This document shows, piece by piece, positions 13,782 to 22,089 of a stretch of 34,941 nt of DNA. This stretch comes from Candidatus Aminicenantota bacterium (GTDB lineage Bacteria > Acidobacteriota > Aminicenantia > Aminicenantales > UBA4085). Positions within the stretch are counted from its first letter, which is position 1. Each line of letters opens with the position of its first letter. The stretch is taken from NCBI GenBank assembly GCA_016867585.1, contig VGJF01000004.1:1-34941 (forward strand). The letters run 5' to 3'. The notes beneath the pieces were generated by a model, which saw nothing but the letters and a program-made list of their open reading frames with translations, was not told the DNA's origin and made no database searches. The translations under genes and the position numbers were made by a program.

Positions 13782-14828
13782 ATGGCCGGAATCGTCGGTT
13801 ACGGTGCCTACATCCCGCGACACCGGATCAAGGTCGAGGAGATCGCCAAGGTCTGGGGCGCGGACGCCCCGAGCTATAAAAAAGGCCTCATGCTGGAGGA
13901 GAAATCCGTCCCTTCGCCCGACCAGGACACGATCACGATGTCGGTCGAAGCTTCGAAAAGGGCCATCAAGCGGGCGGGGATCGATCCCCGCGAGATCGGG
14001 GCCGTCTACGTCGGCTCGGAGTCCCATCCCTACGCCGTGAAGCCGAGCGGAACGGTCGTCGCCGAGGCCCTTGGGGCGACCCCCGATTGCCACACGGCCG
14101 ACTTCGAGTTCGCTTGCAAGGCCGGGACGGAGGGGATGTTCGTCGCCCTCAATCTCGTCAAGGCCGGGGCGGTCAAATACGGCTTGGCCGTCGGGGCCGA
14201 CACCTCCCAGGGGGCTCCCGGCGACGCCCTCGAGTATTCGGCCTCGGCCGGGGCGGCGGCGTATCTCTTCGGGAACGATGACCTCCTCGCCGAGGAGGTC
14301 GCGACTTGCGCCTTCATGACCGACACCCCGGACTTCTGGCGGCGCGAATACCAATACTATCCCCGCCACGGCGGCCGGTTCACAGGCGACCCGGCCTACT
14401 TCAAGCACATCATCGGGGCCGCCGAGGACATCCTGTCCAAGACCGGACTCAAGCCGCCCGATTTCGCCTACGCCGTTTTCCATCAGCCCAACGGGAAGTT
14501 CCCCTTCCGGGTGGGCGAGATGCTCGGGTTCTCGAAAAAGCAGATCGAAACCGGCTGGCTGGTCAACAAGCTCGGAAACACTTACTCCGGCTCGTCGCCC
14601 CTCGGGCTGACGGCCATCCTCGACGCGGCCAAACCCGCCGACCTCATCCTCATGGTCTCCTACGGTTCGGGAGCGGGCAGCGACGCCTTCATCTGGCGAG
14701 TGACGCCGAGGATCGAGGAGGTCCGGAGCCTCGCTCCTCGGACCCGGGACCTCCTCGACGGGGACAAGGTCTATTTGGAATACGGGGCGTACGCCAAGTT
14801 CCGCCGCAAGATCCGGAAGGCGGAGTAG
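13782..14828 (+). CDS. Hydroxymethylglutaryl-CoA synthase, archaeal type
   Basis: MAGIVGYGAYIPRHRIKVEEIAKVWG...EKSVPSPDQDTITMSVEASK, AVYVGSESHPYAVKPSGTVVAEALG, DFEFACKAGTEGM (catalytic Cys), ADTSQGAPGDALEYSASAGAAAYL, FHQPNGKFP (His). Confidence 0.93.
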   Translation: MAGIVGYGAYIPRHRIKVEEIAKVWGADAPSYKKGLMLEEKSVPSPDQDTITMSVEASKRAIKRAGIDPREIGAVYVGSESHPYAVKPSGTVVAEALGATPDCHTADFEFACKAGTEGMFVALNLVKAGAVKYGLAVGADTSQGAPGDALEYSASAGAAAYLFGNDDLLAEEVATCAFMTDTPDFWRREYQYYPRHGGRFTGDPAYFKHIIGAAEDILSKTGLKPPDFAYAVFHQPNGKFPFRVGEMLGFSKKQIETGWLVNKLGNTYSGSSPLGLTAILDAAKPADLILMVSYGSGAGSDAFIWRVTPRIEEVRSLAPRTRDLLDGDKVYLEYGAYAKFRRKIRKAE

Positions 14829-14837
14829 GAGAGGACC

Positions 14838-15990
14838 ATGAGAGACGTCGCTGTCATCGGCGTGGGCATGGCCAAGTGGGGAGAGCTCTGGGAAAAGTCC
14901 CTCCGCTCGGTCTTCGTCGAATCCGCCCTTCTGGCCCTCGAGGACGCGGGTGTGGACCGGATCGACTCCATGGTCGTCGGCTGCATGTCTTCGGGGCTGT
15001 TCGTCGGGCAGGAGCACCTCGGGTCGCTCCTCTCCGATTATCTCGGCCGCGCGCCCGTTCCGGCGGCCCGGGTCGAGTCGGCCTGCGCTTCGGGCGGCCT
15101 GGCCCTTCGCCAGGGCTTTCTCGAGGTCGCCTCGGGGATGGCGGACATCGTCCTTGTCGGCGGGGTCGAGAAGATGACCGACGTGACCGGCTGCGAGGCG
15201 ACCTATGCCTTGGGGACGGCCGCCGACCAGGAATACGAAGGCTTCCACGGCCTGACCTTCCCCGCCCTCTATGCCATGATGGCCGTGGCCCACGCACGCG
15301 TATGGGACGACCCGGGAGCAGCTGGCCATGGTCGCGGTCAAGAACCACGACAACGGATCGAAGAACCCGCTGGCCCAGTTCCCGGTCAAGATCAGCGTCG
15401 AAGCCGTTCTCAACTCCGTCCTCGTCGCCGACCCGCTCCGGATCCTCGATTGCTCGCCGATCACCGACGGCGCGGCGGCGGTCATCCTCTGCCCGGCGGA
15501 GATGGCCGGGAAATTCAAAACCCCCGGGGTCCGGATCGCCGGCACCGGCCAGGCCACGGACACGATCGCCTTGAGTTCCCGGAAGGACCTCTGCTGGCTC
15601 GAATCGACCCGCGTCGCCGCCAAAAAGGCCCTGGCCATGGCCGGCCGGAAGGTCGAAGACATGCATTTCTTCGAGGTCCACGACTGCTTCACGATCGCCG
15701 AGATCATGGTCATGGAGGCCCTCGGGCTCGTGCCCAAGGGCGCCGGGGGAAAGGCCGTGGCGGAGGGCCTGACCCGCCTCGACGGAAAGTTCCCGGTCAA
15801 TCCGAGCGGCGGCCTCAAGGCCAAGGGCCATCCCGTCGGGGCGACGGGCGTCGCCCAGGCCGTCGAGGCCGTCAAGCAGCTCCGCGGCGAAGCCGGGCCT
15901 CGCCAGGTCAAGGGGGCGAGGCGCGGTCTGACCCAGAACATGGGCGGGACGGGGGGAAGCTCCGTCGTCCATGTCTTCGAGGCGATGTAG
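14838..15990 (+). pseudogene. Thiolase (acetyl-CoA acetyltransferase family), frameshifted near 15294
   Basis: ORF1 14838.. gives [48 protein letters not shown]...[15 protein letters not shown]...[21 protein letters not shown]2 (track 15328..15990, readable from 15301 as [27 protein letters not shown]...) ends [18 protein letters not shown]...[20 protein letters not shown] one-base shift separates them. Confidence 0.88.
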
Positions 15991-15999
15991 GAGGTAGCC

Positions 16000-16392
16000 A
16001 TGCCGACCCCATCGAAACACTGGAGAGAAATCCCCCAGCGCTACCGCCTCGAAGCCGGGAAATGCACCCGATGCGGCTATGTCGCCTTTCCCCCGCGTCT
16101 CGTCTGCCCGGAGTGCGGCAACCGCGAGTTCGCTCCCGTCAAGCTGGCCGAGACAGGGACCTTGCTGACCTATACGGTCGTCCGGGTCGCGCCCGGGGGA
16201 TTCGAGGACGAGGCCCCCTACGCCGTGGGCATCGCCGAGCTGGCCGACGGGGTCAAGCTCACGGCCCAGGTCGCCGATTGCGCCTTCGCCGACCTCAAGG
16301 TCGGGCTTAAGGTCCGGCTCGAGTTCCGGAAGCTGAGCGAGGACGGCGCGGCCGGCGTCATCGCCTACGGTTACAAGTTCGTCCCCGCTTAA
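16000..16392 (+). CDS. DUF35-type OB-fold/zinc-ribbon protein (acyl-CoA-associated)
   Basis: [75 protein letters not shown]: CxxC..CxxC ribbon plus OB fold. Confidence 0.93.
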
Positions 16393-16399
16393 ATAGACA

Positions 16400-16431
16400 A
16401 AGAGAGACCGTTTTGTAAAACGATCTCTCTT
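16400..16431. repeat. 32-nt palindrome between the DUF35 and carboxyltransferase genes
   Basis: AAGAGAGACCGTTTT GT AAAACGATCTCTCTT: 15-nt arms with one mismatch and a 2-nt centre. Confidence 0.85.
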
Positions 16432-20381: not shown

Positions 20382-20383
20382 GG

Positions 20384-20878
20384 ATGGAGTTCGAATATCT
20401 CGTCGACGGCGCGGTCCGGAAGGTCGCGGTCGAGGTCAAGGACGGCCTGGTGCGATTCCAGGAGGGTGAAACGGTTTTCGAAGCCGAAATCCTGGCCGTC
20501 TCGGACTCCGAGCTCTTCCTTTCGGTCGAAGGCGCGGGCCGACGGATACTTCTCGCTCGGGACGGAGATCGGAGGCTCGTTTTCCACGGCGGGAGGGAGT
20601 ATGTCCTCGAGGCGCCGGGCAAGGCGGAAGGCGCTTCTTTCCAAGGCGAGGACGGAGGAAAGGAGGGCGGAATCGTCAAGGCCCCGATGCCCGGCAAGGT
20701 CATCAAGGTCCTCGTCGCCGAGGGCGAGCCCGTCCGCAAGAACCAGACCCTCCTCATCGTCGAGGCCATGAAGATGGAGAACGAAATCAAGGCGGGGCGG
20801 GAATGCGTCGTCCGCAAGGTCCATGTCGCCGCCGGCGACCTCGTCGATGCCGCCCGCCCTCTTATCGAACTTGAATGA
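20384..20878 (+). CDS. Biotin carboxyl carrier protein
   Basis: MEFEYLVDGAVRKVAVEVKDG...APMPGKVIKVLVAEGEPVRKNQTLLIVEAMKMENEIKAG; AMKMEN biotinylation site. Confidence 0.92.
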   Translation: MEFEYLVDGAVRKVAVEVKDGLVRFQEGETVFEAEILAVSDSELFLSVEGAGRRILLARDGDRRLVFHGGREYVLEAPGKAEGASFQGEDGGKEGGIVKAPMPGKVIKVLVAEGEPVRKNQTLLIVEAMKMENEIKAGRECVVRKVHVAAGDLVDAARPLIELE

Positions 20879-20880
20879 AT

Positions 20881-20932
20881 GGGGACGGTTCTATTTTTTG
20901 GTTTGATAAAAAATAGAACCGTCCCCTTTTTT
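20881..20932 (+). terminator. Long hairpin with T-tract (rho-independent-like terminator, also REP-like)
   Basis: GGGGACGGTTCTATTTTTT (20881-20899) / AAAAAATAGAACCGTCCCC (20908-20926): perfect 19-bp arms, 8-nt loop, followed by TTTTTT. Confidence 0.85.
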
Positions 20933-20946
20933 CCAAGGAGGCGAAG

Positions 20947-22089
20947 ATGACGCTCGACCTCGAAGAATCCCTGAAGGATTGCCGGGAAATGGTCCGGGAT
21001 TTCGCCCGGACCGAGGTCGCCCCCCATATCCGGGAATGGGATGAGAAGGCGGTTTTCCCCAAGGACGTCCTCCACAAACTGGGAGAGCTTGGCCTGATGG
21101 GGATCATCATCCCCGAAGAGTTCGGCGGGGCCGGTCTGACGTACCGCCATTATATCGCCATCCTCGAGGAGCTGGGGGCCGTCGAGGGAGGGATCGCCCT
21201 TTCGGTCGCGGCCCACAACTCCCTCTGCACGAATCATCTCTACCTGTTCGGGTCGGACGAGCACAGGAAAACATGGCTGCCGCGGCTGGCCCGGGGAGAG
21301 GTCATCGGCGCATGGGGCCTGACTGAGCCCGAGGCCGGTTCGGACGCCGGGGCGACGAAAACGACGGCCGTCCGCGATGGGGAGGGATGGGTTCTCAACG
21401 GGACCAAGAATTTCATCACCCACGCCGGCGGCGGCGGAGCGGCCGTCGTCGTCGCCCGGACTCGCCCCGGGACGGATCATCGCGGCATCTCGGCCTTTTT
21501 CCTTCCTCTCGATGCGCCGGGCGTGTCCGTCGGAAAGCACGAGGACAAGATCGGAATGCGGATCTCGGACACGTGCTCCCTCGTCTTCGAGGACTGCCGC
21601 CTGCCGGGAGACGCGCTCCTCGGAAAAGAAGGCGAAGGCTTCATTCAAGCCATGGAAGTCCTCGACGGCGGGCGGATCTCGATCGCCGCCCTCTCGGTCG
21701 GCATCGGCCGGGGAGCCCTGGACGCGGCCGCGGCCTATGCCAAGCAGCGCCGCCAGTTCGGCCGTCCCATCGGCGCCTTCCAAGCCATCCGCTTCAAGCT
21801 GGCCGACATGGCGACCCTCCTTCAGGCGGCCCGCCTCCTGACCGAGAGCGCCGCCGATTCCAAGGACGCCGGCCGGAAGACGACCCTCATCTCCTCCCAG
21901 GCCAAGCTCTACGCCTCCGAAGTCGCGGTCAAGGTCGCCGAGGAAGCCGTCCAGATCCACGGCGGCTACGGCTACTGCAAGGACTATCCGGTCGAAAAAT
22001 TCTGGCGCGATGCCAAGCTCTGCACGATCGGCGAGGGGACGAGCGAGATCCAGCGTCTCGTCATCGCCCGGGAAATTCTCGGAGAATAG
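20947..22089 (+). CDS. Acyl-CoA dehydrogenase, short-chain/butyryl-like
   Basis: [96 protein letters not shown]. Confidence 0.95.

Follow-up and report, generated by a model that had tools for sequence, protein, structure and literature searches.

How would a bacterium complete the breakdown of leucine if the operon responsible carried no lyase for the last intermediate, 3-hydroxy-3-methylglutaryl-CoA (HMG-CoA)? The question is raised by a 34,941-nucleotide contig of a Candidatus Aminicenantota bacterium (VGJF01000004.1, contig C4; referred to as the window), which is part of an assembly of 3.45 Mb in 434 contigs that is 87% complete. On its + strand, between positions 13755 and 22089, lie in order the genes for an archaeal-type HMG-CoA synthase (HMGCS), a thiolase, a DUF35 protein, methylcrotonyl-CoA carboxylase (MCC) beta, an enoyl-CoA hydratase, a biotin carboxylase, a biotin carrier and an acyl-CoA dehydrogenase. 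The same eight genes in the same order had been named in the original prediction, and all were recovered here from open reading frames (ORFs) and profile matches. That prediction left two readings: synthesis of isovaleryl-CoA with MCC as a decarboxylase, or leucine degradation in which the first three enzymes are run backwards. The textbook view has HMG-CoA synthase working in the biosynthetic direction only and leucine breakdown leaving through HMG-CoA lyase. We hold it probable, nevertheless, that this is a leucine/isovalerate operon whose last step, the splitting of HMG-CoA, would be performed by a reversed thiolase/HMGCS/DUF35 complex, replacing HMG-CoA lyase.

The HMGCS module and its association with MCC

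Against the archaeal model TIGR00748 (cut-off 353) the HMGCS reaches 528 bits, compared with 119 bits against the bacterial MvaS-type model, and its nearest solved chain is 6esq_I (462 bits), the synthase subunit of the archaeal thiolase/HMGCS complex. Residues E80, C112 and H234 are invariant in every homologue covering them (116-117 loci). With the curated cut-off passed and the Glu-Cys-His catalytic residues present, the protein is clearly predicted to be of the archaeal type. Together with the next two genes it forms a set of three neighbours belonging to the families of the archaeal complex described in PMC6392133. Cys83 of the thiolase is kept in 110 of 111 homologues and the CxxC...CxxC motif of DUF35 in about 90 of 102. 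The thiolase/HMGCS/DUF35 set of the original prediction is thus confirmed as three adjacent genes, but the thiolase ORF is broken in the assembly. A recurrent “neighbour” cluster (c8) was discarded as an antisense artefact of the thiolase. Directly upstream of HMGCS, an ECF-type sigma factor and an anti-sigma-like gene (named by eye) are seen in L035, L038 and other f5-family Aminicenantes loci, and a lipoate-ligase-like gene (also named by eye) lies near HMGCS in 26 loci.

MCC-beta scores 742 bits to the MCC-beta chain 3u9r and 736 bits to mitochondrial MCC-beta 8j4z, as against 460 bits to geranyl-CoA carboxylase and no more than about 278 bits to most solved propionyl-CoA carboxylases, an exception being 9tps, which carries the label propionyl-CoA carboxylase and reaches 753 bits. 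The EAMKM biotinylation motif is found in 31 of 31 aligned biotin carrier homologues. With a carboxyltransferase near characterised MCC-beta, a biotin carboxylase and an EAMKM carrier, the products are predicted to form a 3-methylcrotonyl-CoA carboxylase. The best NCBIfam match of the hydratase is gamma-carboxygeranoyl-CoA hydratase, at 273 bits and under the cut-off of 426.

TIGR00748-type HMGCS was then sought in 119 related genomes and the surroundings of the matches were compared. HMGCS, thiolase, DUF35 and MCC-beta lie on the same strand in this order in 38 of the 45 Aminicenantia loci, and the gene order is therefore far beyond chance; the check on synteny in relatives which had been proposed with the original prediction thus finds a conserved cluster. 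Five of the seven exceptions lie at contig ends, one (G095) has MCC on another contig and one (G104) is without MCC. Both HMGCS and MCC-beta are present in 42 of the 119 genomes, HMGCS alone in 4, MCC alone in 4 and neither in 69 (Fisher p = 8e-23, a value overstated because related genomes are not independent); most of the 8 mismatches are at contig ends.

A wider scan of 84,980 species’ genomes yielded 80 HMGCS loci, nearly all bacterial. MCC-beta occurs in the HMGCS locus in Coatesbacteria, several Zixibacteria, WOR-3/Stahlbacteria, Cloacimonadota, Planctomycetes and Bacteroidales, and also in a Deltaproteobacterium and in Holophagales, Chlorobi-group and Kapabacteria records. Outside Aminicenantia the linkage is found in about 10 other phyla, often rearranged. 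In a Bacteroidales locus (L190) HMGCS follows the MCC genes, and in a WOR-3 locus (L174) the set stands in one run with genes for propionyl-CoA carboxylase, mutase, epimerase and CoA-transferase, as well as alanine dehydrogenase-like and methionine gamma-lyase-like genes. Mapped on a tree of 90 HMGCS proteins, linkage to MCC must change state 16 times, and well-supported branches force at least 7 of these changes; the link between HMGCS and MCC has therefore been kept or regained repeatedly. Separately, in loci L144, L154, L166, L171, L181 and L068, HMGCS-thiolase-DUF35 adjoins a different carboxyltransferase (33-37% to MCC-beta), with a biotin carboxylase and often a hydratase; an AtuA-like protein (named by eye) is present at some loci of this kind (L068, L147). 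There the module possibly serves a related route of isoprenoid-acid degradation.

The relation to HMG-CoA lyase was examined in 297 genomes drawn evenly across the phylum, 71 of which have MCC-beta, and 60 MCC loci outside Aminicenantia were compared. HMG-CoA lyase lies within about 10 kb in 25 of them and the HMGCS module in 3 (G351, G261, G227), while none has both and 32 have neither. The 125 HMGCS loci searched contained no lyase gene. Such a distribution is what is seen when one gene set substitutes for another, here the HMGCS module for the lyase. Complete chromosomes of Aminicenantes (G119), Zixibacteria (G126) and WOR-3 (G151) contain MCC and HMGCS but are without HMG-CoA reductase or a lyase match near the cut-off. 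Among 50 diverse genomes chosen for having HMGCS, hence not an unbiased sample, 26 bear MCC: 21 of these are without a lyase match near the cut-off, 3 have a homologue of the Gln type described below and 2 a partial or fused match. A canonical liu operon has HMG-CoA lyase in or near it, and none is present in the window. To this extent the original prediction was right in reporting no HMG-CoA lyase; one homologue lies on another contig (C27).

Table 1 Genes of the proposed operon and of its catabolic surroundings in the window.
Feature	Coordinates	Strand	Support
Archaeal-type HMGCS	13755..14828, probable start 13782	+	TIGR00748 528 bits, NF003274 532 bits
Thiolase, SCP2/archaeal type	14838..15990	+	N part 1-152 NF053570/NF004720; C part 15328-15990 NF004720 314 bits
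DUF35 protein (zinc ribbon + OB fold)	16000..16392	+	PF12172, PF01796 above cut-off
MCC beta, carboxyltransferase	16430..18049	+	MCC-beta chains; PF01039 510 bits
Enoyl-CoA hydratase, probable methylglutaconyl-CoA hydratase	18068..18859	+	PF00378 202 bits; specificity inferred from position
Biotin carboxylase (BC) subunit (MCC alpha, BC domain)	18870..20381	+	accC TIGR00514 630 bits, above cut-off
Biotin carrier, MCC-alpha-like BT region	ORF 20342..20878, true start probably inside (~20378)	+	PF00364 68 bits, PF21139 weak
Acyl-CoA dehydrogenase, short-chain type	20947..22089	+	PF00441/PF02771/PF02770; IGEGTSE, VLDGGRI
Methylmalonyl-CoA mutase large part (context: propionyl-CoA catabolism)	23232..24914	+	TIGR00641 798 bits, PF01642 755 bits
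Methylmalonyl-CoA epimerase (context)	24911..25321	+	TIGR03081 133 bits, above cut-off
Second biotin carboxylase, propionyl-CoA carboxylase type (context)	31853..33358	-	NF006367 605 bits, above cut-off
Second carboxyltransferase, propionyl-CoA carboxylase type (context)	33375..34730	-	TIGR01117 725 bits

Further genes of the window include SelB and SelA (3457-6790, - strand), and the host thus probably makes selenoproteins. The stretch 25444-26894 on the + strand holds an AbiEii-type nucleotidyltransferase toxin gene (PF08843, 53 bits) and, after it, a short overlapping gene that may be the antitoxin partner. An E1 alpha gene in the window was considered as part of a branched-chain keto-acid dehydrogenase; its closest solved chains are, weakly, pyruvate dehydrogenase E1 alpha.

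Proposed route and energetics

In the proposed route, MCC (16430-20878) would carboxylate methylcrotonyl-CoA with ATP to give methylglutaconyl-CoA, which the hydratase would convert to HMG-CoA. HMGCS would then cleave HMG-CoA with CoA into acetyl-CoA and acetoacetyl-CoA, and the thiolase, sharing the CoA site and held by DUF35, would split acetoacetyl-CoA into two acetyl-CoA, the net reaction being HMG-CoA + 2 CoA -> 3 acetyl-CoA + H2O. Lyase followed by CoA transfer from acetyl-CoA gives two acetyl-CoA plus acetate, as opposed to three acetyl-CoA by way of HMGCS. Relative to lyase and CoA-transferase, one more thioester would be kept, worth about 1 ATP and repaying the MCC step.

MCC can run as a carboxylase since the biotin carboxylase and the EAMKM carrier are retained. 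The direction of breakdown is favoured because the biotin carboxylase that is kept is ATP-dependent, the neighbours are catabolic (in the window, propionyl-CoA carboxylase-type genes, mutase and epimerase) and the energetics are not prohibitive. The original prediction had raised the unfavourable equilibrium of HMGCS as an objection. Reversal costs about 31-36 kJ/mol for the thioester, of which the retro-aldol step offsets about 5-15, and thiolysis of acetoacetyl-CoA returns about 26 kJ/mol. On this estimate the objection is weaker than it looks, because the thiolysis is about as favourable as the reversal of HMGCS is unfavourable. Channelling of acetoacetyl-CoA is the role described for the archaeal complex, and it would make the reversal workable. 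Thus, the lyase-free degradation of leucine set out in the original prediction is supported by synteny, a nearly 1:1 co-occurrence with MCC, mutual exclusion between module and lyase in MCC loci and the lack of a reductase, whereas its direction is what we infer.

Points against the route and rival explanations

A number of observations weigh against this reading. In the usual teaching HMG-CoA synthase does not work in the direction of cleavage, and the sum of the coupled reaction, near thermoneutral at about -10 to +5 kJ/mol, is an estimate from general values and uses no constant of this complex. The thiolase of the window is not intact in the assembly: its frame shifts at ~15291-15305, the N part being in one frame to ~15294 and the remainder in the next. 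The homologues L050 and L038 read continuously across the site, and the change may be a real mutation or an assembly error. The acyl-CoA dehydrogenase gene is missing from most related operons, and the enzyme itself, whose nearest solved chain is 1ws9 (406 bits), has the short-chain type motif IGEGTSE and VLDGGRI at the isovaleryl-type base position. The signature of isovaleryl-CoA dehydrogenase, which we take to be a catalytic Glu at the place of human E254 and none at the short-chain place, is not seen, and by its sequence the enzyme would not be typical of that type. The step from isovaleryl-CoA to which the original prediction matched this gene is not supported. About 20 of the 32 Acidobacteriota having neither lyase nor module at the locus show no lyase at E <= 1e-40 genome-wide (HMGCS was not searched there), and because these bear MCC without lyase or adjacent module, the lack of a lyase alone does not prove an HMGCS route. 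MCC loci without lyase or module include those of G430, G194, G186, G285, G321, G253 and G346. The host genome is 87% complete, and substrate, direction, complex formation, channelling and energetics are all predictions.

The host’s one HMG-CoA lyase homologue, on contig C27, also counts on this side. It scores 270.8 bits against an NCBIfam cut-off of 246 and retains the RDG, HDTYG and GLGGCP motifs, and might thus cleave HMG-CoA itself, leaving the HMGCS module with a separate, unlinked function. This we consider unlikely. The homologue has Gln at human position 72, a residue that is Glu in the solved wild-type lyases 2cw6, 1ydo, 2ftp and 6nds. Gln is found there in all 7 Aminicenantia copies and in 5 from other HMGCS-bearing genomes, and Glu in 20 of 20 typable MCC-linked lyases. 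Gln-type homologues adjoin a family III CoA-transferase, with no MCC beside the host copy, and in several genomes, the host included, they lie beside (homo)isocitrate/isopropylmalate-type dehydrogenase and LeuD-like genes. Some of the genomes that carry them (G101, G112, G116) lack MCC, and others (G207, G195, G218) also contain lyases that are canonical by score. Most module genomes have no such homologue. Their context would suggest a citramalyl-CoA lyase type. Sub-type and context would therefore argue against a role in leucine breakdown while leaving some room for one, and as a refuter of a lyase-free route the C27 homologue was set aside, being of another sub-type in another gene cluster. 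On C27 (L077, ~2016-7078), a LeuD-like gene, a LeuC-like gene (named by eye), the family III CoA-transferase, the Gln-type homologue and the dehydrogenase form one run, which recurs in part in relatives and other phyla; it may represent a citramalate-type route connecting 2-oxobutyrate with pyruvate + acetyl-CoA.

Synthesis of isovaleryl-CoA from acetyl-CoA would have HMGCS running forward, the hydratase as a dehydratase, MCC as a decarboxylase and the dehydrogenase as a reductase. Synthesis is the normal role of HMGCS and thiolase, and all intermediates are common to the myxobacterial alternative isovaleryl-CoA (AIB) route, which shares HMG-CoA, methylglutaconyl-CoA and methylcrotonyl-CoA with the route proposed here. 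The AIB route uses an MvaS-type HMGCS and the biotin-free decarboxylase AibAB, however, whereas a full ATP-dependent MCC is found here, with biotin carboxylase and biotinylation motif kept throughout, neither of which a decarboxylase would need. The role of AibA and AibB is described in PMC7756340. No AibAB-like pair was recognised in the window (no genome-wide search was made); a GctAB-like pair stands beside the module in two relatives only, and was rejected as AibAB since it is of the CoA_trans family and has the Glu of a working CoA-transferase. Moreover, the neighbours belong to propionyl-CoA and amino-acid catabolism, and the module occupies the place of the lyase in the MCC loci of the phylum. 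Biosynthesis is thus quite improbable, and this half of the original prediction is not upheld.

A catabolic cluster might alternatively rely on an unrecognised HMG-CoA lyase, the complex acting mainly on acetoacetyl-CoA. A thiolase is useful after any cleavage of HMG-CoA, and some Acidobacteriota with MCC show no detectable lyase and lack the module at the locus, but this arrangement would give HMGCS no reason to keep all its catalytic residues and to co-occur about 1:1 with MCC, which makes it very unlikely. Even less credit can be given to a mevalonate pathway served by HMGCS and thiolase, with MCC adjacent only through shared HMG-CoA and leucine feeding isoprenoids. The solved homologous complex does belong to archaeal mevalonate synthesis, but the search for HMG-CoA reductase in the full host genome advised by the original prediction found none (PF00368; 87% complete), and Dxr of the methylerythritol phosphate route is present. 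Reductase is likewise lacking in 112 of the 119 relatives, the other 7 giving weak matches of 39-60 bits, and, among the 50 genomes with HMGCS, in 25 of the 26 that bear MCC, only G138 having one. Remote reductase homologues are present in seven Aminicenantia genomes that belong to one family (L109-L115); that at L110 1486-2841 (- strand) is 451 aa long and reaches 54 bits, the cut-off being 442. The original prediction had named as contrary findings a lyase elsewhere with complete leucine degradation together with a complete mevalonate pathway using this HMGCS, or a cluster that is not conserved. Instead no reductase was found, the cluster is conserved and the sole lyase homologue is of another sub-type in another cluster.

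Known systems and significance

The module is like the archaeal thiolase/HMGCS/DUF35 complex in having the same three families side by side, a close solved relative and the catalytic residues, but the archaeal complex serves mevalonate synthesis with a reductase, whereas here it is linked to MCC, no reductase was found and its direction would be reversed. The PhlACB acyltransferase (PDB 5m3k/5mg5) is built from the same three-protein set (HMGCS, 211 bits to PhlA), but it acylates a secondary metabolite and is far more distant from the window HMGCS than 6esq. With the canonical bacterial liu operon the locus shares MCC beta, hydratase, biotin carboxylase and biotin carrier in one operon; it differs in having HMGCS-thiolase-DUF35 in place of the lyase and a dehydrogenase that is not of isovaleryl type. 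Anaerobic degradation of isovalerate via MCC, hydratase and HMG-CoA is also found in Desulfococcus multivorans, the isovalerate cluster of which uses the lyase HmgL (PMC5109826). No earlier report of a route by HMGCS reversal was found in the open-access literature searched, which does not settle priority.

Both the enzymes and the pathway are known, and what is unexpected is the exchange of the last step. It is fairly likely that in many uncultured phyla the lyase has been displaced by the reversed complex, with three acetyl-CoA per HMG-CoA and about 1 ATP saved; one complex would then serve both synthesis and breakdown. If so, the annotation of leucine/isovalerate degradation would change in many environmental genomes, where MCC with a “missing” lyase would not amount to an incomplete pathway, and caution would be called for in labelling such HMGCS as mevalonate synthesis. 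The exchange would also have a simple reason in energy, one extra thioester being kept per leucine.

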